Assembly (NCBI GenBank): GCA_019637795.1
Contig: JAHBUY010000001.1
Coordinates: 827,001 to 891,000 of the forward strand
From: a bacterium
GTDB lineage: Bacteria; Desulfobacterota; Binatia; HRBIN30; CADEER01
Reading direction: 5' to 3'
Length of the DNA: 64,000 bases
Numbering within the stretch: position 1 is the stretch's first letter; each line of letters begins with the position of its first letter. Of the stretch, positions 24,149 to 46,715 are shown piece by piece. The notes below the pieces were generated by a model that ran no database searches, was not told the DNA's origin, and saw only the letters and a program-made list of their open reading frames with translations. The position numbers and the translations under genes are program-made.

Positions 24149-25015
24149 TCAGAGCCGCAGCATGTCGACCGACACCTCGAGGGTGTGCGGGCCGCCGCCG
24201 AAGATGACGCCCTTGAGCGGGGTGACGTCGGTGTAGTCGCGGCCCCAGGCGGTGGTGACGTGGCGGTCGGTCGGCAGGAGATCGTTCGTCGGGTCGAAGT
24301 CGACCCAGCCGGCGTCGGGCACGTGGACGGCGAACCAGGCGTGCGAGACGTCGGCGCCCTGCAGGCGGTCCCGACCGGGCGGCGCCACGGTTTCGAGGTA
24401 GCCGCTGACGTAGCGCGCCGGCAGGCCGAAGGCGCGGACGCAGGCGATCGCCAGGTGCGCGAAGTCCTGGCAGACGCCGTGGCGCTGCGCCAGCACGTCG
24501 CCGAGCGGCGTCGCGACGGTGGTGCTCTCGGGATCGAAGGTGAAGTCGCGATGGATGCGCTGGTTGAGGTCGGCCACCGCCTCGAGCAGCGGCCGCCCCG
24601 GGGAGAACGACGGCGCCGCATAGGCGCGCACCTCGGCGGTGACGGCGGCGCCGGGCGAGTCGAGGCGGAACTGCCGCGCCAGGCGGGTCTCCGGCTGCGC
24701 GCTCTCGAGCAGCCGCTGCAGCGCCGTCTCCCACGCCGGCGATGCGGGCGCCGCGGCCGCCGCGCCGATCTCGACCTCGCTCGTCGCCGTCACCGTCAAC
24801 GCCTGATGCGGCTCCTGCACGGCGAAGTAGAGGACGCGGTTGCCGAAGGCATCCTCGTGCTCGGCGCGCTGCTGCGGCGGCGGATCGATGGCCAGCGCGG
24901 CGGCGGCGCAGGTCTGGATGGCGGTGGCGCGCGGGTGCATGCGCGCCTCGCTGTGGGCCAGCACCACCGGCTGGCTGTAGACGTAGCGGGTGCGGTGGAC
25001 GATGCGGTACCTCAT
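24149..25015 (-). CDS. Bacterial transglutaminase-like protein (locus A)
   Basis: A 288-residue protein with the N-terminal beta domain of bacterial transglutaminase-like proteins (RIVHRTRYVYSQPV) and a papain-like core. The triad is intact: GVCQDFAHL (Cys near 181), SHAWFAV (His near 225) and DFDPTND (Asp near 237). The C-terminus TTAWGRDYTDVTPLKGV is family-typical. Its ATG overlaps the stop of the ATP-grasp/alpha-E gene (ATGA), so it is the last gene of a three-gene operon. Probably a peptidase or amide-transferring enzyme acting with the ligase; substrate unknown. Confidence 0.88.
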   Translation of the reverse strand: MRYRIVHRTRYVYSQPVVLAHSEARMHPRATAIQTCAAAALAIDPPPQQRAEHEDAFGNRVLYFAVQEPHQALTVTATSEVEIGAAAAAPASPAWETALQRLLESAQPETRLARQFRLDSPGAAVTAEVRAYAAPSFSPGRPLLEAVADLNQRIHRDFTFDPESTTVATPLGDVLAQRHGVCQDFAHLAIACVRAFGLPARYVSGYLETVAPPGRDRLQGADVSHAWFAVHVPDAGWVDFDPTNDLLPTDRHVTTAWGRDYTDVTPLKGVIFGGGPHTLEVSVDMLRL

Positions 25016-27522
25016 GCGACCCGCACCAACTGTTGCGGCCGGTCGCCGCGGCTGAAGTAGGCGGCGGCGAGCGCATCGGCGGCGACGCCCAGCGCGGCGC
25101 CGATCCGCTGCAGCGTGTCGTCGAGGCCGTGATCCAGGGCGCGGCCGGTGGTCGGGCCCGGGTGGCGCAACTCGCCGCGCGCGGCGCGCACCGCCTCGCG
25201 CGCCGCGCCGGGCGTGCCGGCGCCGGCGGTGAGGCCGTCGAGCAGCGCGTCGAGCTGCAGGAGCTGGTAGGCGAGCGAGCGCGGATTGCTCTCGTCGTCG
25301 ATCAGCAGATCGAGCACGGCGCCGGCATCGGCGGTGGCGCGGTAGCGGCGGCGGTACGTGATCGAGGCATCGGCGACGGCGAGCAGGGCCTCCCACGGCA
25401 CGGCGGCGATGTCGGTGCCGGGCGGGCACAGGCCGCGCAGCAGGTTGACGACCCCGAGGCCGCGTTCGAGGCGGCGGCCGATCTCGAGGAAGCGCCAGCG
25501 CTGGCCGCGGCTCATGCTGTCGGCGCTGAGGCCGCCGAAGGCGGCGAGGAGGAGCAGCAACTGTTCGATGCGCTCCGGGGCCGCCTCCAGGCTGGCGCCG
25601 TCGGCGAGCGCGCGCTGCATGGCGGTGAGGACGCGCCAGGTGTCGGTGGAGAGGCGGTCGCGCACCGCACGCGCGGCGCGGGCCAGCGCCTCGAGGTTGA
25701 AGCGGGCGCCGCCGACGCGGGCGCGATCGAACAGCAGCCCGCGCAGCTCGCCATCGGGGACCGCCGCGCGCTCCGCGGCGCCGGCGCCGGCGAACCCGGG
25801 GAAGGTGCCGGTGACCCAGGTGACGGCGCGCAGCAGGGCGGCGCGGTGCGCATCGCGCGGCGCCGCATCGCCGTCGAGGACGCGGTTCAGCGCCTCGCGC
25901 AGCACCCGCGCCGTCGCCTCGGCGCGCTCGGCATAGCGGCCGATCCAGAAGAGATTGTCGGCGACGCGCCCCGGCACGTCCTGGCCGCCGCGCTCGACCA
26001 GCAGTGGATGGGTCGCCGGCACCAGCACGCCGACCTCCGGCTCGGGCTCGGAGGCGAGCACCCAGACGTCCTTGCTGACGCCGCCCTGCTGGTTGGAGAC
26101 CATCAGGGTCGACGGCGAGGGCGCCACCCGGCAGAGGCCGCCGGGCATCACCGCGTAGCCGTCGCGGTCGGCCACCAGGAAGCCGCGCAGCACGCTGGCC
26201 CGCGCCTCGAGCGCGCCGCCGGCCCACACCGGCACGGTCGAGAGCGCGACCCGTTCCTGGCCGACGAAGGCATCGGGCCGCCACTCGATCTGGGCGCGCA
26301 GGGCGTCGAGATCGGCGGCGCTGAGCTCGTCGCCGAACGCCGTCACCCGGCTGGCGTGCGGATCGATCGGCTTCACCACCAGCTCGGGCAGATGCTCGAG
26401 CACGTAGGCGCGCGACTGGGGGTCGCCGCACCACCAGGTCGGCACCGACGGCAGGGCCAGCTCCTCGCCGAGCAGCGCGCGCGCCAGCGCCGGCAGGAAC
26501 GGCATCAACCCCGGATTCTCGACGGCGCTGCTGCCGAGCGGGTTGAGCACCGCGACGTGGCCGGCGCGCACCGCCTGCAGCAGGCCGGGCGCGCCGAGCA
26601 GCGAATCGGGCCGCAGCTCGAGCGGGTCGCAGAAGGCGCCGTCGACGCGCCGCAGCACGACGTCCACCGCCTGCAGCCCGTCGAGGGTGCGCAGCCACAG
26701 CCGTTGATCGCGCACCGTCAGATCGTCGCCCTGCGCCAACGTGCAGCCGAGCTCGCCGGCGAGCAGCGCCTGCTCGAAGAAGGTCTCGCTGCCCGGCCCC
26801 GGCGTCAGCAGCACGATCTGCGGATCGTCGCCGCCGGCCGGCGCCAGCGCCGCCAGGGTGGCGCGGACGCGGCGCAGGAATGGCGGCAGCCGGTGCGCGT
26901 GCGCGTTGCGGAAGACGCTGGGCAGGATGCGCGACAGGACGACGCGATTCTCCAGCGCGTAGCCGACGCCGCTCGGCGCCTGGCTGCGGTCGCCGAGCAC
27001 GCAGCGGCCGCCGCCGGGCAGGCGCGCCAGGTCGGCGGCATAGAGCGCCAGGTGCCGACCGCCGGCCGGCGCGACGCCGACGCACGGGCGCGCGAACCCG
27101 GCGTGCGCGAACACGACTTCGGGCGGCAGCAGCCCGCGCCGCACCAGCGCCTGCGGGCCGTAGAGATCGGCGAGCACCAGCTCGAGCAGCTCGGCGCGCT
27201 GCACCAGGCCATGCTCGATCGCCTGCCACTCGGCGCTGGTGAGCAGCAGGGGCACCGGATCGAGCGGCCACAAGCGCTCGATCGCCTGCGGATCCTCGTA
27301 CACGTTGTAGGTGGCGCCGTGCTCGCGCAGCAGCCGCCGCGCCTCGCGATGGCGCTGCGCCAGCTCGTCGCCGCCGAGCGCGTCGAGCGCGTGCAGCACC
27401 GGCGCCCAGTGCGGGCGCGGCCGCCCGTCGTCGGCGACGCACTCGTCGTAGCCGCCGCCGCCGCGATAGCCGGCGAGCAGGGACGAGGGCGCGCGCTGCG
27501 GATCGATCATCGGCGGGCGCAT
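25012..27522 (-). CDS. Circularly permuted ATP-grasp fused to alpha-E domain (locus A)
   Basis: An 836-residue fusion. Residues 1 to about 490 are a type 2 circularly permuted ATP-grasp (GATYNVYED, APSGVGYALENR, IVLLTPG, LVVKPIDPH and the end SNQQGGVSKDVWVL). An alpha-E domain runs from about residue 515 to 836 (RVADNLFWIGRYAERAEATAR, then 'ALADGASLEAAPERIEQLLLL' and SITYRRRYRA). In locus B of this window the same two domains are separate genes. Family knowledge predicts amide or peptide ligation by the ATP-grasp domain, with alpha-E as helical partner. An in-frame ATG four codons later is an alternative start. It lies between the DUF2126 gene (56-base gap) and the transglutaminase (4-base overlap). 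Confidence 0.88.
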   Translation of the reverse strand: MRPPMIDPQRAPSSLLAGYRGGGGYDECVADDGRPRPHWAPVLHALDALGGDELAQRHREARRLLREHGATYNVYEDPQAIERLWPLDPVPLLLTSAEWQAIEHGLVQRAELLELVLADLYGPQALVRRGLLPPEVVFAHAGFARPCVGVAPAGGRHLALYAADLARLPGGGRCVLGDRSQAPSGVGYALENRVVLSRILPSVFRNAHAHRLPPFLRRVRATLAALAPAGGDDPQIVLLTPGPGSETFFEQALLAGELGCTLAQGDDLTVRDQRLWLRTLDGLQAVDVVLRRVDGAFCDPLELRPDSLLGAPGLLQAVRAGHVAVLNPLGSSAVENPGLMPFLPALARALLGEELALPSVPTWWCGDPQSRAYVLEHLPELVVKPIDPHASRVTAFGDELSAADLDALRAQIEWRPDAFVGQERVALSTVPVWAGGALEARASVLRGFLVADRDGYAVMPGGLCRVAPSPSTLMVSNQQGGVSKDVWVLASEPEPEVGVLVPATHPLLVERGGQDVPGRVADNLFWIGRYAERAEATARVLREALNRVLDGDAAPRDAHRAALLRAVTWVTGTFPGFAGAGAAERAAVPDGELRGLLFDRARVGGARFNLEALARAARAVRDRLSTDTWRVLTAMQRALADGASLEAAPERIEQLLLLLAAFGGLSADSMSRGQRWRFLEIGRRLERGLGVVNLLRGLCPPGTDIAAVPWEALLAVADASITYRRRYRATADAGAVLDLLIDDESNPRSLAYQLLQLDALLDGLTAGAGTPGAAREAVRAARGELRHPGPTTGRALDHGLDDTLQRIGAALGVAADALAAAYFSRGDRPQQLVRVA

Positions 27523-27578
27523 GGGTATCTCACGCGGGCGGCGAAGTCATCCGCGGGTGGACCGGCGGGCGCGCCGCC

Positions 27579-30902
<3,324 letters not shown>

Positions 30903-31470
30903 GACGACGCGCGGGCGCAGAGGCCCCGCGCCGGGAGAGCGAACGGCGTGCCGACCGCGGGCGGCGGACCGGCGCCATGGCGCGGCGACGCCGGACCGGA
31001 TCCGCGGTGCCCACTTCGTGCTCACCTGCCTACGCAGCGGGCGGCGGCGGGCGGTCGCTGCCCTATCGCGCGGCAGCGAGGCGAGACCGCGCCACCGAAC
31101 GGCGATGCGCAGGCTCCCAGCGCCCGCCGGCAGGCCGCGACGGTGGCGGCGCCGCGGCGATTCCCCTTGGCGTCGAGCTCGGCGAGCCTCGGCGGCGGGC
31201 CTGGGCGGGCCCCGTTCCGACGGACGTGGCTCGCCGCCCCGGGCTCCCGCGACGCGTCCGCCACCCGGCTACCGCAGCCGGTGGCGATCTGCGACCGCTC
31301 GCGGCTGTCGCGCGCCCCAGCCCCACCACCCTTCCGCCTCGCCGACCATGCCGCACTGCACGGATTGTCGCTGCCGTCAATAATGTTTCTGGCGACACGA
31401 TCATACACACAAAATGTATTGCTCCGTCACATCCATCGCGTATTCAGCCATGCACGATGCAGGGGTTGGC
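30903..31470. other. Divergent intergenic region with an AT-richer patch
   Basis: 568 bases between the locus A operon (leftward) and the mucin-like gene (rightward). Bases 30903-31340 are GC-rich and show no supported gene. From about 31370 to 31520 the sequence becomes clearly richer in A and T (TCAATAATG, ATCATACACACAAAATGTAT), marking a probable promoter region for the rightward gene. No clear -35/-10 pair can be fixed. Confidence 0.5.
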
Positions 31471-39761: not shown

Positions 39762-39875
39762 GCGGAGAGCCGAGGGCGCGCGGTCGCGGCGCCCTCCCGG
39801 GCGGCAGGCCTGCCCAGAAGTTCAGCAGGGCCGGTGGGCGCGCCGGCGTCCGACCGTGACACCTGCCGGGCCCGG

Positions 39876-41357
39876 ATGCTGGCACGGGAGTTGGACTTCA
39901 CGCCCCCCATGCTCGGCCTGCCCACGGAATCGCCCGCCAATGACCGGATGCCCTACCACGAGTTCTACCTCGACGACTTCGCGCCGCGGCCCCACTACCG
40001 GCCGCTGTGGGAGCACATCCGCCGCACCGGCCAGAGCGCCCTCGGATCCAAGGTCCACGAGGCCGACCTGGCGCTGCGCTCCGAGGGCGTGACCTTCACC
40101 GTGTACAGCGACAAGGAGGAGGGCATCGAGCGCGTCTGGCCGTTCGATCTGATCCCGCGCATCATCCCGGCCAACGAGTGGGCGACCATCGAAGCCGGGC
40201 TCAAGCAGCGGGTACGGGCGCTCAACCTCTTCGTCCGCGACCTGTACCACGACCAGCAGATCCTGCGGGACGGCGTCGTGCCGGCCGAGATGATCTTCAA
40301 CGGCAAACACTTCCTGCGCGAGATCATGGACATCGACCCGCCGCAGGACATCTACGTCCACATCAGCGGCATCGATCTCGTCCGCGACGGCCCCGGCCGC
40401 TACCTCGTCCTGGAGGACAACCTGCGCACCCCGTCCGGGGTCTCGTACATGATCGAGAATCGGATCGTGGAGCGCCACATCCTGCCCGAGTTCTTCGCCA
40501 AGTACCGGGTGCGGCGGGTCGAGCACTATCCGGCGCTGCTGCTCGAGGCCCTGCGCTTCCTCTCGCCGCGCGGCAAGGACTGCGCCGAGATCGCGCTGCT
40601 CACCCCCGGGGTCTACAACTCGGCGTACTTCGAGCACACCTTCCTCGCCAAGGAGATGGGCATCGAGCTGGTCGAGGGGCGCGACCTGGTGGTGAAGGAG
40701 GACGTCGTCTTCATGAAGACGACGCACGGCCTGCGGCGCCTCGACGTGCTCTATCGCCGGGTCGACGACGCCTTCCTCGACCCGCTCTGCTTCCGCGCCG
40801 ACTCGGTGCTCGGCGTCGCCGGCATCATCAACGCCTGGCGCGCCGGCAACGTCGCCATCGTCAACGCGCCCGGCAACGGCATCGCCGACGACAAGGCGAT
40901 CTACCCGTTCGTGCCCGACATCATCCGCTACTATCTCGGCGAACAGCCGGTCCTGCAGAACGTGCCGACCTACCAGATGACCAACGACGACGATCGCGCC
41001 TTCGTGCTCGACAACCTCGAGCAGATGGTGGTCAAGGAGGTCAGCGAGTCGGGCGGCTACGGCATGCTGATGGGCCCGTCATCGACCCCGGCGCTGCGCG
41101 CCGAGTTCGCCAGCCGCATCAAGGGCAACCCGCGCAACTACATCGCCCAGCCGGTGGTGCCGCTGTCGCGGCACGTCTGCTACCTCGACGGCGAGCTCGA
41201 GTCGCGCCATATCGACCTGCGCCCGTTCGTCATCTACGGCGAGGACATCCAGGTCGTTCCCGGCGGTCTGACGCGGGTGGCGCTCACCAAGGGCTCGCTG
41301 GTGGTGAACTCCTCGCAGGGCGGCGGCAGCAAGGACACCTGGGTGCTGGCGGAATAG
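39876..41357 (+). CDS. Circularly permuted ATP-grasp ligase (locus B)
   Basis: A protein of about 493 residues, single-domain type 2 circularly permuted ATP-grasp: GVTFTVYSD, VWPFDLIPRIIPANEW, 'YLVLEDNLRTPSGVSYMIENR', CAEIALLTPG, KPI-equivalent MVVKEVSESGGYGM and the end SSQGGGSKDTWVL. Ligand-binding motifs are intact. Candidate starts are GTG 39834 and ATG 39876, 39909 or 39948; homology starts near 39948 and no site has a strong ribosome motif. Predicted to make amide or peptide bonds using ATP. The alpha-E and transglutaminase partners lie 1.5 kb downstream, beyond two genes on the opposite strand. Confidence 0.88.
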   Translation: MLARELDFTPPMLGLPTESPANDRMPYHEFYLDDFAPRPHYRPLWEHIRRTGQSALGSKVHEADLALRSEGVTFTVYSDKEEGIERVWPFDLIPRIIPANEWATIEAGLKQRVRALNLFVRDLYHDQQILRDGVVPAEMIFNGKHFLREIMDIDPPQDIYVHISGIDLVRDGPGRYLVLEDNLRTPSGVSYMIENRIVERHILPEFFAKYRVRRVEHYPALLLEALRFLSPRGKDCAEIALLTPGVYNSAYFEHTFLAKEMGIELVEGRDLVVKEDVVFMKTTHGLRRLDVLYRRVDDAFLDPLCFRADSVLGVAGIINAWRAGNVAIVNAPGNGIADDKAIYPFVPDIIRYYLGEQPVLQNVPTYQMTNDDDRAFVLDNLEQMVVKEVSESGGYGMLMGPSSTPALRAEFASRIKGNPRNYIAQPVVPLSRHVCYLDGELESRHIDLRPFVIYGEDIQVVPGGLTRVALTKGSLVVNSSQGGGSKDTWVLAE

Positions 41358-41375: not shown

Positions 41376-41987
41376 TCACCGCGCAGCGGGCAGGTAGGTC
41401 GCCTGGCGGTCGAGCATCGCGGCGAACGCCGCCAGCAGCCCGTCCAACCCCGTCGTCTCGGGCTCGATGATGCGCAGCGCGCCGACGATCGCCTCCACGG
41501 TCGCCAGGCAGTGCGCCTGCGGCTCGCGGCGCAGACCGCGATAGGCGCTCGGGCGGCGTGGCGTGAGCGCGACGTGCGGCAGCGCCCGCAGCCAGGAGTG
41601 GGCGTCGTAGATCTTCTTGGCGAGAAACCAGGTGCCGTCGATCACCACCAGATGCCGCGGCCGCTCGCGGGGCGCGAGCGTGGCGAGGTCGCGCGCCGCC
41701 GGACCGGGATAGAGCAGGGCGGCGTCCCCCGGCAGCCGCTGGCGGATCGCCGACGCATCCTCCCACGGCGCGCACCACTCGACGCGAGCCCGCGCCAGGC
41801 CGAGGCGCGCGATGCGGACGGTGCCGAGGGCGTGAAAGCGCTCGCGCGGGTGCTGCAGGATGGTGACTGGGGTGCGGTTGGCCACCGTGCGCACCGCGTC
41901 GCAGATGCAGGCCACCCGCGGCTTGAAGCAGCGATAGCAGGAGGCGCGGGCCTCCGTGGCGCCCGCCGATCGGCGATCGGCGGGCAC
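41376..41987 (-). CDS. DTW-domain tRNA-uridine aminocarboxypropyltransferase
   Basis: A 203-residue protein with an N-terminal Cys cluster (CYRCFKPRVACIC) as in TapT/YfiP-type enzymes. The SPOUT-like core has LQHPRERFHALGT, LLYPGPAARDL and DGTWFLAKKI, the DxTW motif that names the family. Related enzymes transfer an aminocarboxypropyl group from SAM to uridine in tRNA (acp3U47). The GTG at 41987 is the first plausible start after the RRM gene stop at 42001; an open extension further upstream is Ala/Val-rich antisense of the Gly-rich RRM tail. Co-directional with the RRM gene, 13 bases apart. Confidence 0.82.
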   Translation of the reverse strand: MPADRRSAGATEARASCYRCFKPRVACICDAVRTVANRTPVTILQHPRERFHALGTVRIARLGLARARVEWCAPWEDASAIRQRLPGDAALLYPGPAARDLATLAPRERPRHLVVIDGTWFLAKKIYDAHSWLRALPHVALTPRRPSAYRGLRREPQAHCLATVEAIVGALRIIEPETTGLDGLLAAFAAMLDRQATYLPAAR

Positions 41988-42000
41988 GCCTGCGGATGAC

Positions 42001-42375
42001 TCAGCGCCGGCCGTAGCCGCCGCCCCGGCCGCCACCACCGCCCCGACCACCACCGCCGCCGCCGAAGCCGCCGCGACCGCCACCACCGCCGCCCCGGCCG
42101 CCACCGCCGAAGCCACCGCCGCGGTCCTCGCGCTCGCGCGCTTCGTTGACCTTGATGGCGCGGCCCTTGAGCTCGTGCCCGTCGAACTGCTGCACCGCCC
42201 GTTGCGCCTCGGATTCGCTGCTCATTTCCACGAAGCCGAAGCCGCGCGACTGACCGCTGAACTTGTCCGTGATCACGGTCGCCGAATCGCAGCTTCCGGC
42301 CTGAGAGAACAGCTCCTGTAGATCGGCGTCGGTCACTTGGAATGCGAGATTACCGACGTACAGCCTTCGTCCCAT
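42001..42375 (-). CDS. Glycine-rich RRM RNA-binding protein
   Basis: A 124-residue protein: a single RRM (residues 3-80) with RNP2 LYVGNL and RNP1 SRGFGFVEM, then a Gly/Arg tail of about 40 residues (GGGFGGGGRGG repeats) ending YGRR. AGGAG stands 6 bases before the ATG. Small bacterial RRM proteins of this sort are often cold- or stress-induced RNA chaperones. The gene is followed after 13 bases by the tRNA-modifying DTW gene, so the pair may be an RNA-handling operon. A long leader (42376 onward) with a palindrome at 42511 could carry post-transcriptional control. Confidence 0.92.
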   Translation of the reverse strand: MGRRLYVGNLAFQVTDADLQELFSQAGSCDSATVITDKFSGQSRGFGFVEMSSESEAQRAVQQFDGHELKGRAIKVNEAREREDRGGGFGGGGRGGGGGGRGGFGGGGGGRGGGGGRGGGYGRR

Positions 42376-42885: not shown

Positions 42886-43845
42886 ATGCTCAGCCGGATC
42901 GCGGATTCTCTCTACTGGATGTCGCGCTACCTCGAGCGCGCCGGCAACACGGCGCGTCTGGTGGAGATCAACCTGGTCCATCTGCTGGAGGCGGAGGACG
43001 CGCTGCCGGAGGCGGCGCAGTGGCGGCCGTTGCTGTCCATCGGCGGCAGCGAGGAGGCCTACCAGGCGCGGTTCGACGGCGCCGAGGTCACCGCCGCGCG
43101 CACCATCCAGTTCATGACCCGCGAGCGCAGCAATCCCAACGGCATCCGCACCAGCCTGCGCCTGGCGCGCGAGAATGCGCGCGTCGTGCGCGACCGCATC
43201 TCGAACGAGATGTGGGAGGCGATCAACGAGATGTGGCTGCGCATCGACCGGCTGATGGAGCGCGGCGGCGCCGAGCGGTCGCCGGGCCTGTTCGCCGAGG
43301 TGCGCAACGGGGTCGCCCGCTTCCACGGCATCTCGGTCAGCACGATGATGCGCGGCGAAGCCTTCGGCTTCTACCTCCTCGGCACCTGCGCCGAGCGCGC
43401 CGACATGACGGCCCGGATCCTCGACGTGAAGTACCACCTGCTGCTGCCCGACGTGGCGATGGTCGGCTCGCCGCTCGACTACTACCAGTGGGCGGCATTG
43501 CTGAAGTCGCTGTCGGCGTTCGAGGCCTTCCGGCGCCGCTACCACGCCGGTCTGCGGCCGGTGGACATCGCCGAGTTCGTCCTCTTCGAGCGCGACTTTC
43601 CGCGCTCGCTGCGCTTCTCGGTCGACCGCATGGGCCACGCGTTGCGCGAGATCGGGGTCGGCGACGACGACCGGCAGGCGGCGGCGCTGCGCGACCTCGA
43701 CGCGCACCTGGCGGAGTCGACCGCCGAGCAGATCTTCACCGTCGGCCTGCACCAGTATCTCGACGCCTTCCTGGCCAAGGTCGGCGCCTTCAACACCGCC
43801 GTCTCGCGCGCCTATTTCGAACAGGTTCTCGGGGACGAACGGTGA
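42886..43845 (+). CDS. Alpha-E domain protein (locus B)
   Basis: A 319-residue all-helical protein opening MLSRIADSLYWMSRYLERAGNTAR, the alpha-E hallmark, with SNPNGIRTSLRLARENARVV and RSLRFSVDRM further on. The alpha-E family always accompanies circularly permuted ATP-grasp genes and is predicted to be their structural or regulatory partner. Start at the ATG of 'atgctcagccgg'; no strong ribosome motif upstream. The stop (TGA 43843-43845) overlaps the GTG of the transglutaminase-like gene, so translation is coupled. Confidence 0.88.
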   Translation: MLSRIADSLYWMSRYLERAGNTARLVEINLVHLLEAEDALPEAAQWRPLLSIGGSEEAYQARFDGAEVTAARTIQFMTRERSNPNGIRTSLRLARENARVVRDRISNEMWEAINEMWLRIDRLMERGGAERSPGLFAEVRNGVARFHGISVSTMMRGEAFGFYLLGTCAERADMTARILDVKYHLLLPDVAMVGSPLDYYQWAALLKSLSAFEAFRRRYHAGLRPVDIAEFVLFERDFPRSLRFSVDRMGHALREIGVGDDDRQAAALRDLDAHLAESTAEQIFTVGLHQYLDAFLAKVGAFNTAVSRAYFEQVLGDER

Positions 43846-44696
43846 GATACGAGATCGCCCACACCCTCCGGCTCGCTGCCGCGGCGCCGGTGTGGGAGCA
43901 CCATTGCGAGCTGCGCCTCGCCCCGAGCCCGACGCCACACCAGCAGGTCGGCGAGGTGGCGCTCGCCGTGGCCCCGGAGGCGGCGGTGCGCCGCTACCGC
44001 GACGGCTTCGGCAATACCGTCCACGCCTTCGATCTGATGGCGCCGCACGACGCGGCGCGCGTCACCCTGCGCGCCGCGGTGGAGACGACGCTCGCCAATC
44101 CCTTCGACTTCGCCCCGCTGCCGCCGGGCAACGAGCGCGCCTGGATCGCCCAGGCGCTGCACGGCCAGCCGCGGCTCTGGGACTATCTGCTGCACCGCAG
44201 CCCGCTGACGCCGGCGCTGGCGACGCTCGAGCTGGCGGTGCCGGACCGCGACCCGGGCAAGCCCCTGCTGGCGGCGCTGCAGGCGGTGATGGAGTGGATG
44301 CGCGACGCGCTCAGCCGCGAGGCCGACGCCGCGCCGGCGCCCGTCCTCGCCCAGGCCCTGCGCGGCGAGGCCATCGACGCGCTCGCCCTCGGCCACCTCC
44401 TGGTCAGCATCGCGCGCGCCTGGGGCGCCCCGGCGCGCATCGCCCGCGGCTACCGCGATCCCGCCTACGCGGAGGACGACGCGGAGCAGGTGCTGCACGC
44501 CTGGGCCGAGATCCTCGTCCCCGGCGCCGGCTGGCGCGGCATCGACCCGTGCACCGGCCTGGTCACCAACGACACCTACATCACCGTCGCCGTCGGCCGC
44601 GACGCCGCCGACTGCCCGCCCGTTCGTTCCGCCTGCAAGGGCGACGAGACCGAGCTGGCGCGCGTCTCGGCGGTGGAGGTGCGCGGTGAGCAGTGA
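43842..44696 (+). CDS. Transglutaminase-like protein lacking the catalytic Cys (locus B)
   Basis: A 284-residue protein of the same family as the gene at 24149: beta domain (YEIAHTLRLAAAAPVW), FGNTVHAF, ANPFDFAPLP and a core ending 'TVAVGRDAADCPPVRS'. At the position of GVCQD in active homologues it reads GEAIDALALGH (Ala at residue 177 instead of Cys). The His (219, in LHAWAEIL) and Asp (235, in GIDPCTG) of the triad remain. It is therefore probably a non-catalytic, binding member, or uses another residue. GTG start overlapping the alpha-E stop. Part of a four-gene operon with the two AstE-like hydrolase genes. Confidence 0.85.
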   Translation: MRYEIAHTLRLAAAAPVWEHHCELRLAPSPTPHQQVGEVALAVAPEAAVRRYRDGFGNTVHAFDLMAPHDAARVTLRAAVETTLANPFDFAPLPPGNERAWIAQALHGQPRLWDYLLHRSPLTPALATLELAVPDRDPGKPLLAALQAVMEWMRDALSREADAAPAPVLAQALRGEAIDALALGHLLVSIARAWGAPARIARGYRDPAYAEDDAEQVLHAWAEILVPGAGWRGIDPCTGLVTNDTYITVAVGRDAADCPPVRSACKGDETELARVSAVEVRGEQ

Positions 44697-44742: not shown

Positions 44743-45693
44743 ATGATGGAGATCCTCCACGACGACATCGTCTCCCTCGCCCTGCCCTACCGCGAGACGC
44801 TGCGCGTTCAACGCACCAGCTTCGTCGGCGGCGGCGGGCCGCGCGTGGCGGTGATCGCCGGCATCCACGGCGACGAGCTCGAGGGACTGTTCGTGTGCCA
44901 CCGCCTGGCGGCCTGGCTCGAGCAACTGGCGGCATCGCACCCGCACGCGCTGCGCGGGCGCGTCGACCTGGTGCCGGCGATCAACCCGCTCGGCATCGAC
45001 ACGCTGGAGCGCTTCGTGCCGGTGTTCGACGCCGACCTCAACCGCAACTTCCCCGGCGACGCGGAGGGACTGCTGCCGCAGCGCATCGCCGCCGGCGCCA
45101 TGGCCGCGCTGTCGGGCGCGGCGCTGGTCATCGACATCCACGCCAGCAACATCTACCTGCGCGAGATCCCGCAGGTGCGCATCGCCGAGGACTTCGCCGC
45201 GACCCTGGTGCCGCTCGCCCAGGGCATGAACCTCGACCTCATCTGGCTGCACGGCGCCGTGACCGTCCTCGAGGCGACCATCGCCCACAGCCTGAACAGC
45301 ACCGGCACGCCCTGCCTGGTCGTCGAAATGGGCGTCGGCATGCGCATCACGCCGGCGTTCACCGAGCAACTGCTGATCGGCATCGTCAACGTCTGGCGCA
45401 CGCTCGGCGTCCTGGCGCCGGATCTCGAGCTGCCGCCGCCGACGCACACGCCGCTGGTCGCCGACGACTCCAACGTCCACTACCTCAACGCCGCCACCTC
45501 CGGCCTGTTCGTTCCCGACATCGAGCACTGGATGGCGGTGCGCAGGGAGCAGACGCTGGGGCGCATCGTCTCGCCGCTGCACGGCGGCACCCTCGCCGCC
45601 GTCCGCTCCCCGGTCGACGGCATCCTGTTCACGCTGCGCGAGTACCCCGCCGTCTACGAGGGCTCGCTCATGGCGCGGATCATGGCGGTGTGA
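44743..45693 (+). CDS. AstE/AspA-type zinc hydrolase 1 (locus B)
   Basis: A 316-residue member of the succinylglutamate desuccinylase/aspartoacylase branch of the M14 fold: IAGIHGDELEG (zinc His and Glu of HxxE), NPLGIDTLER, DADLNRNFPG (Arg/Asn substrate-binding), DIHAS (third zinc His) and VVEMG with Glu 195 as catalytic base. The C-terminal beta part contains GLFVPDIEHWMAV. The family hydrolyses amide bonds of N-acyl amino acids or small peptides. It starts ATGATG 47 bases after the transglutaminase gene and its stop overlaps the ATG option of the next gene, so it is in the same operon. Confidence 0.88.
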   Translation: MMEILHDDIVSLALPYRETLRVQRTSFVGGGGPRVAVIAGIHGDELEGLFVCHRLAAWLEQLAASHPHALRGRVDLVPAINPLGIDTLERFVPVFDADLNRNFPGDAEGLLPQRIAAGAMAALSGAALVIDIHASNIYLREIPQVRIAEDFAATLVPLAQGMNLDLIWLHGAVTVLEATIAHSLNSTGTPCLVVEMGVGMRITPAFTEQLLIGIVNVWRTLGVLAPDLELPPPTHTPLVADDSNVHYLNAATSGLFVPDIEHWMAVRREQTLGRIVSPLHGGTLAAVRSPVDGILFTLREYPAVYEGSLMARIMAV

Positions 45694-45728
45694 TGCGCGC
45701 GCGCCCGCGCGCCCACGAGAGGCCTCCC

Positions 45729-46715
45729 GTGACCACGCCCACGCTGCTGGAAATGACCGCACCGCTGCGCGACGACTTCGCCATCCCGTACCACGACCTC
45801 GGACCGGCGGGAGAGCGGCCGGCGCTGGCGCTGGTCGCCGGGCTGCACGGCAACGAGCTGAACGGCATCTTCGTGCTCTCGCGCCTCGCCGAGTTCCTGG
45901 CCCGCGTCGCCGACGGGCGCGAGCCGGCACACGCCCTGCGCGGCCGGGTCGTCATCGTGCCGGCGGTGAACGTGCTGGGCGTGAACACGCGCTCGCGCCG
46001 CTGGCCGTTCGACAAGACCGACATCAATCGCATGTTCCCCGGCTACGACGCCGGCGAAACGACGCAGCGCATCGCCAACGCCGTCTTCCAGGCGACGCGC
46101 GCGGCACGCTACCGGGTCGACATCCACAGCTCCAACCTCGACTTCGAGGAACTGCCGCAGGTGCGTCTCTACGAACCGAGCGAGGACGAGAAGGCGAGCG
46201 CGCTGCTGTTCGGCCTGCCGGCGGTGATCGAACGGCGCACCGACCAGGTGTTCACCAGCACGCTCGGTCACGCCTGGCGCGGCGCCGGTGGCGAGAGCTT
46301 CGTCATCCAGGCGGGCCGCGCCGGCGACCTGCAACTGCCGCACTGCGAGCGGCTGTTCCGCGCCCTGATGGCCTTTCTCCACCACACCGGCCTGGTCACC
46401 GGCATCGACCTCGCCGCCGAGGACCAGGACACGCACTACTTCGGCGTCGACCGCACGCTGTCGCTCGTCTCCGACCACGCCGGCCTCTTCGTCACCCATG
46501 TCCAGGTCGGCACCTGGCTGCAGGCCGGGGCGCTGATCGGCGAGGTCTACGACGGCTTCTCGGGCGAACGCCGCGCCGAGGTCCGCGCCCCGACCGCCGG
46601 CCTGCTGAGCGGCATCCGCCGCCAGCCCCTCCTCTACGAGGGCGACCTCATCGCCCGCCTGCAGACCCGCACCCCGACCGGCAGCGAGAAGCAGGTGAAG
46701 GGCCAGGAGCAGTGA
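45729..46715 (+). CDS. AstE/AspA-type zinc hydrolase 2, altered catalytic position (locus B)
   Basis: A 328-residue paralogue of the preceding protein: VAGLHGNELNG, VNVLGVNTRSR, KTDINRMFPG and DIHSSNLDF keep the zinc ligands and the Arg of NRxFPG. Where the first copy has VVEMG this one has FVIQAGRAG, so the catalytic Glu appears replaced by Gln (codon at 46308). It may therefore bind but not hydrolyse efficiently, or use a different mechanism. GTG at 45729 has AGAGG upstream; an ATG at 45693 overlapping the previous stop adds 12 residues and is an alternative. Last gene of the operon; a hairpin repeat begins 39 bases after its stop. Confidence 0.85.
   Translation: MTTPTLLEMTAPLRDDFAIPYHDLGPAGERPALALVAGLHGNELNGIFVLSRLAEFLARVADGREPAHALRGRVVIVPAVNVLGVNTRSRRWPFDKTDINRMFPGYDAGETTQRIANAVFQATRAARYRVDIHSSNLDFEELPQVRLYEPSEDEKASALLFGLPAVIERRTDQVFTSTLGHAWRGAGGESFVIQAGRAGDLQLPHCERLFRALMAFLHHTGLVTGIDLAAEDQDTHYFGVDRTLSLVSDHAGLFVTHVQVGTWLQAGALIGEVYDGFSGERRAEVRAPTAGLLSGIRRQPLLYEGDLIARLQTRTPTGSEKQVKGQEQ

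Follow-up and report, generated by a model that had tools for sequence, protein, structure and literature searches.

Gene systems in which an ATP-grasp, an alpha-E protein and a transglutaminase occur together are widespread; clusters related to them have been found to respond to nitrogen limitation (PMC5491218, PMC8050072). In the Anbu operon, as the account of Iyer et al. (2009) is relayed in PMC5666114 and PMC6376114, a circularly permuted ATP-grasp, an alpha-E protein and a transglutaminase accompany Anbu itself. RloB of Pseudomonas aeruginosa is an inactive transglutaminase that sits beside the ATP-grasp RloC and has a phenotype (PMC12239564); the erythrocyte protein 4.2 (EPB42), also a catalytically inactive transglutaminase, provides the precedent for a structural role (PMC10318531).

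Within the 64,000-nucleotide stretch of DNA analysed here—‘the window’—one locus (locus B, plus strand) brings the three families of the Anbu operon together: a circularly permuted ATP-grasp at 39834–41357 (CP_ATPgrasp_2; its start is uncertain and may lie further in), an alpha-E protein at 42886–43845, 1528 bases from the ATP-grasp, and a transglutaminase-like protein of 284 amino acids at 43842–44696, an intact open reading frame whose GTG start overlaps the alpha-E stop by four bases. It departs from the Anbu arrangement in three ways: the transglutaminase has no catalytic Cys; two minus-strand genes separate the ATP-grasp from the alpha-E gene; and, where Anbu would be expected, a pair of AstE/AspA-like M14 genes comes next instead, with no proteasome family found among the locus-B proteins scanned. 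A comparison with NCBIfam yielded no name for the transglutaminase, the alpha-E protein or the ATP-grasp of this locus.

The ATP-grasp looks intact from its sequence, as the sequence-only reading of this DNA had supposed, and retains 171 of the 172 columns that are invariant across all other orthologues. The two minus-strand genes (41376–42375), which by sequence resemble a DTW protein and a Gly-rich, RRM-like RNA-binding protein, occupy the 1528-base gap; in most of the other loci compared, the ATP-grasp and alpha-E genes lie close together. Downstream, the first M14 protein (M14a; 44743–45693, plus strand) is an AstE/AspA-like zinc hydrolase with intact HGDE, DIH and EMG motifs, and the second (M14b; 45690–46715, plus strand) also keeps its zinc motif. 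The Glu of the M14a sequence VVEMG was not found in the M14b orthologues shown, which read VIQAG, LLRVG, LLQIG or LLTVG at this point but keep HGxE and D[IVL]H; M14b may thus be a non-catalytic or altered hydrolase.

Judged by the curated Pfam cut-offs, the product of 43842–44696 belongs to both families expected of it, matching Bact_transglu_N (PF08379) at 64 bits (cut-off 27) and Transglut_core (PF01841) at 37 bits (cut-off 23), with no match to any other family in the Pfam scan. Its segment IDALALGH aligns without gaps to the GVCQDFAH of the homologue at 24149 and of the orthologues; the loss of the catalytic Cys noticed in the earlier reading is therefore real, although the residue in its place is Ala180 (codon GCG, 44379–44381), three residues away from the Ala 177 named there. 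Five adjoining residues of the motif are altered (G178I, V179D, C180A, Q181L and D182A), there is no Ser, Thr or Cys at residues 175–184, and no other reading frame of the gene restores a GxCxD motif—a combination that excludes a point error as well as a frameshift. The other two members of the triad stand where they were said to stand, the alignment placing His219 at the CAC codon 44496–44498 and Asp235 at the GAC codon 44544–44546. Of the features by which thiol transglutaminases and peptidases are recognised, the protein thus has the His and the Asp and lacks the nucleophilic Cys at the N-terminus of a helix.

The transglutaminase-like fold is, on the evidence of the predicted model, kept in full, as had also been suggested from the sequence. 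AlphaFold returns a confident prediction (pLDDT 92.6), for which the best match in the PDB is 3isr, a putative cysteine protease of Cytophaga hutchinsonii and the closest solved structure over the full length (Z 25.9, rmsd 2.6, 258 residues). The helix spanning residues 180–193 of the model begins exactly at the residue where the Cys is missing, and the His, Asp and Arg residues of the pocket are retained. At the aligned motif 3isr reads AGVCRDFAHL and so possesses the Cys that the window protein does not.

The loss extends well beyond this genome. From genome searches and one collection scan we gathered 53 locus-B transglutaminases with sequenced surroundings; 21 keep the Cys and 32 carry Ala or Ser in its place, the latter comprising the window, G013, G041, G660 and another 28 genomes from the same order as G660 (here the Cys-less order, which also includes L033, a ‘Chromatiales bacterium’ MAG). 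That these genes are orthologues is indicated by the match of their operon neighbours, since identity to the window is mostly 70–85% for the ATP-grasp (64% in G041), 45–67% for alpha-E and roughly 51–76% for M14, and only about 38–48% for the transglutaminase. The intact Cys-His-Asp triad is found in 30 of 30 A-type orthologues and in 83 of 87 further transglutaminases from other loci; set against 21 of 53 at locus B, these controls indicate that the loss there exceeds chance.

An alignment of orthologues had been proposed to separate a shared replacement from a change confined to this assembly, and its outcome is divided: the nearest orthologues of the window (G003 and G004) and all 30 Geobacterales loci examined retain the Cys, whereas 31 other orthologues do not. 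An assembly or sequencing error in the window genome would explain the state of those nearest relatives; it would have to accommodate, however, several adjacent differences in an intact frame, no frameshift that restores the motif and 31 independent genomes that are also without the Cys, and we accordingly reject it as having a negligible probability.

Across the Cys-less order the motif mostly reads G[CTS]AADLAHLLIA, with HAW mostly changed to H[HYQFN]W, and three more genomes of the same order (G801, G802 and G842) show a motif yet more eroded, with Ala, Pro or Thr. Alternatively, the protein might still be an enzyme with a non-canonical or migrated nucleophile, for example residue 179, Ser180 or, in the window, Cys237. 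Papain-like folds do provide cases of active-site migration (PMC10318531), the His and Asp are kept in nearly all copies, and position 179 is occupied by Thr (13), Cys (9), Ser (5) or His (1) among 28 copies of the Cys-less order, with Ser180 present in three Cys-less copies. Against this, residue 179 varies between Thr, Cys and Ser elsewhere and is Asp in the window, where residues 175–184 offer no nucleophile at all; Cys237, although near Asp235, was not found in relatives; and G734 has lost the His as well. We consider a relocated nucleophile very improbable.

Two further features of the loci compared deserve recording. Cys-less transglutaminases also occur outside locus B (L045, L046, L048 and L051), where the motif reads GSLRDFAH in Neomegalonema and is of the G[SF][TS]PW type at the other three, which are loci of methanotroph type. 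Separately, most locus-B operons of the Cys-less order have a NikR-like regulator convergent behind them (L193, L195, L196, L199, L200, L201, L204, L211, L214, L224, L275, L277, L279 and L283), often with CbiM-like or HerA-like genes near.

How often the Cys was lost depends on the tree consulted. The transglutaminase tree has poorly supported basal branches and is compatible with a single origin (p 0.24) as well as with several, so the counting was done on a tree built from the ATP-grasp and alpha-E proteins alone. On this operon tree the Cys was lost in more than one lineage: its state requires four changes, of which at least three fall on branches with strong support; G003 and G004, both Cys-intact, form the sister group of the window (support 98/93); and forcing all Cys-less members into one clade is rejected (p-AU 0.002). 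We put the number of independent losses at about three to five. Taken alone, the transglutaminase sequences would allow a single origin followed by later mixing of operon genes.

What the earlier reading missed is that the loss tracks two other features: the disappearance of the M14 pair and the presence of a Cys-intact paralogue, which the window also encodes. The paralogue belongs to locus A, a second system on the minus strand (24149–31025), which consists of the A-type transglutaminase (24149–25015; Cys-His-Asp intact, GVCQDFAH), a protein in which ATP-grasp and alpha-E are fused according to Pfam (25012–27522), and a transglutaminase/DUF2126 putative amidoligase with a GSCRD motif (27579–31025). 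In three genomes the two loci adjoin or have merged, a DUF2126-transglutaminase lying by a B-type ATP-grasp or transglutaminase (L192 in G734, L194 in G803, L206/L288 in G013). At L289 (G1196) there are two tandem transglutaminase-DUF2126 genes with GSCRD in just one, and the second may be another Cys-less case.

Calling the A-type gene at E<1e-85, we find it in 31 of the 32 Cys-less genomes versus 2 of the 19 Cys-intact ones, with the Cys verified in 30 of the A-type copies; the DUF2126 marker of locus A is distributed similarly. The M14a orthologue (E<1e-130) behaves in the opposite manner, being present in 19/19 Cys-intact genomes versus 2/32 Cys-less ones (the window and G013). No Cys-intact locus-B copy is without its M14-type pair, whereas 30 of the 32 Cys-less genomes lack one. 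In G013 the pair lies directly behind the Cys-intact A-type gene; in the window, with zinc motifs intact, it still follows the Cys-less gene, which makes this an exceptional and possibly recent state. Fisher tests give p of about 2e-10 for the A-type gene and 4e-12 for M14a, treating as independent genomes that are related, and in a sign test on independent pairs significance is out of reach with about three to five events. The exceptions to the A-type association are G660, with Ser at the Cys site and no A-type copy detected, and G003 and G004, where the A-type gene is present and the Cys is kept.

If the A-type enzyme covers the function, the locus-B copy might simply be redundant and in decay—losing its Cys, then being deleted—with the intact frame a passing stage. 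A single order does hold the whole series, from Cys-intact through Cys-less and eroded (G801, G802, G842) to absent (G677, G686, G696, G708, G721, G805). The B-type ATP-grasp occurs in 40 of 195 genomes of the Cys-less order, and in at least three of them (G686, G708 and G805) the NikR-like gene, which elsewhere stands behind the transglutaminase, follows alpha-E after 53–160 bases; the transglutaminase gene has thus been cleanly deleted. None was seen at locus B of G677, G696 and G721, and the ATP-grasp and alpha-E genes persist in several such genomes. The transglutaminase is therefore not a component that the ligase always needs. In the Geobacterales, where the Cys is kept, the ATP-grasp and transglutaminase genes co-occur, one being found in 35 genomes and the other in 36. 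At L275 (G671), where the transglutaminase is likewise absent, the alpha-E match is limited to residues 1–110, and this alpha-E gene may also be decaying.

The Cys-less copies also change faster, as decay would have it. The window shares 39–41% of its transglutaminase residues with G003 and G004 at an alpha-E identity of 62–64%, the corresponding figures between G003 and G004 being 57% and 67%; on these identities the locus-B transglutaminase appears to have evolved faster since the Cys was lost, and the five altered neighbouring residues of the window motif point the same way. Where it can be measured, however, purifying selection acts on the Cys-less copies. Medians of dN/dS for four groups of the Cys-less order are 0.08–0.21, as low as those of the Cys-intact groups (0.07–0.27), and above the 0.02–0.10 of ATP-grasp and alpha-E; the Cys-less figures come from orthologues of that one order, the window’s gene being without a close relative. 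Such selection after the loss of a catalytic residue is what characterises a pseudoenzyme. Furthermore, 43 positions are conserved in Cys-less and Cys-intact groups alike, His219 and Asp235 among them, the Asp that follows the motif is conserved in both except in the window, and the window protein retains all 17 columns that are invariant across every other orthologue. Simple decay nevertheless retains an appreciable, if minor, share of our expectation.

The reading we lean towards, with modest confidence, is that the locus-B protein is a pseudo-transglutaminase: the A-type paralogue took over its catalytic work, and the protein itself has been kept for a non-catalytic role. Its ancestor would have been a Cys-His-Asp transglutaminase within an operon of ATP-grasp, alpha-E, transglutaminase, M14a and M14b. 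In genomes with a complete locus A, the A-type enzyme would then have taken over the thiol chemistry, after which the locus-B copy would have lost its nucleophile while the fold and the His, Asp and Arg of the pocket stayed; the Cys-less protein would most likely be held as a binding or regulatory partner of the ATP-grasp/alpha-E pair, and some lineages would later have deleted its gene. On the simplest account, one step would be carried out jointly by the thiol enzyme and the M14 hydrolases, and a separate one by ATP-grasp together with alpha-E. In this scheme two things are inferred: that the A-type enzyme took over the reaction, and what the non-catalytic role is.

It is reasonable to suppose that the protein has a non-catalytic role, since it shares its loss with orthologues under purifying selection and is encoded beside an ATP-grasp that looks intact; that the role would be one of binding or regulation together with the ATP-grasp/alpha-E pair is suggested by the operon context, by selection, and by the four-base overlap with alpha-E, which most Cys-less loci have in common with the window. 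The binding or scaffolding function proposed in the sequence-only reading hence stands in part: a binding role is plausible from these sequences, and presentation of a substrate to the ligase possible, but some genomes keep the ligase pair and have no such gene, which speaks against an important role as a partner. Alternatively, the Cys-less protein could be a regulatory or specificity subunit in a hetero-complex with the A-type enzyme, coupling both ATP-grasp/alpha-E ligases of the window, with a change from self-sufficiency to pairing that is linked to the loss of the M14 hydrolases; we regard this as unlikely.

The joint pattern of Cys, M14, A-type gene and deletion amounts to a natural experiment, one that suggests the functional units to be a thiol enzyme with M14 hydrolases on the one hand and an ATP-grasp with alpha-E on the other, and a division of labour between them becomes directly testable. 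It also carries a caution for annotation, in that homology alone gives no ground for calling locus-B-type genes active transglutaminases.

We found no description in the searchable literature of a recurrent Cys loss tied to a paralogue and an M14 pair. Several elements of the picture do have counterparts. RloB resembles the window protein in having a transglutaminase domain described as inactive and encoded next to an ATP-grasp. It differs in that the domain is joined to seven transmembrane helices and is accompanied by an aspartic protease and an ATP-grasp of RimK-like type, whereas the window protein carries Bact_transglu_N and neighbours a circularly permuted ATP-grasp; the RloB-type (inactive-transglutaminase/7TM) family gives no Pfam match to the window protein at E<=1, and the neighbour is CP_ATPgrasp_2. 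EPB42 has Ala in place of the catalytic Cys, and this protein offers the likeness of a transglutaminase fold without its catalytic Cys that is retained as a structural partner. Its fold matches that of the window protein weakly (8cs9, Z 6.8), and its context is unrelated, EPB42 being a large, multi-domain eukaryotic protein of the red-cell ankyrin complex.
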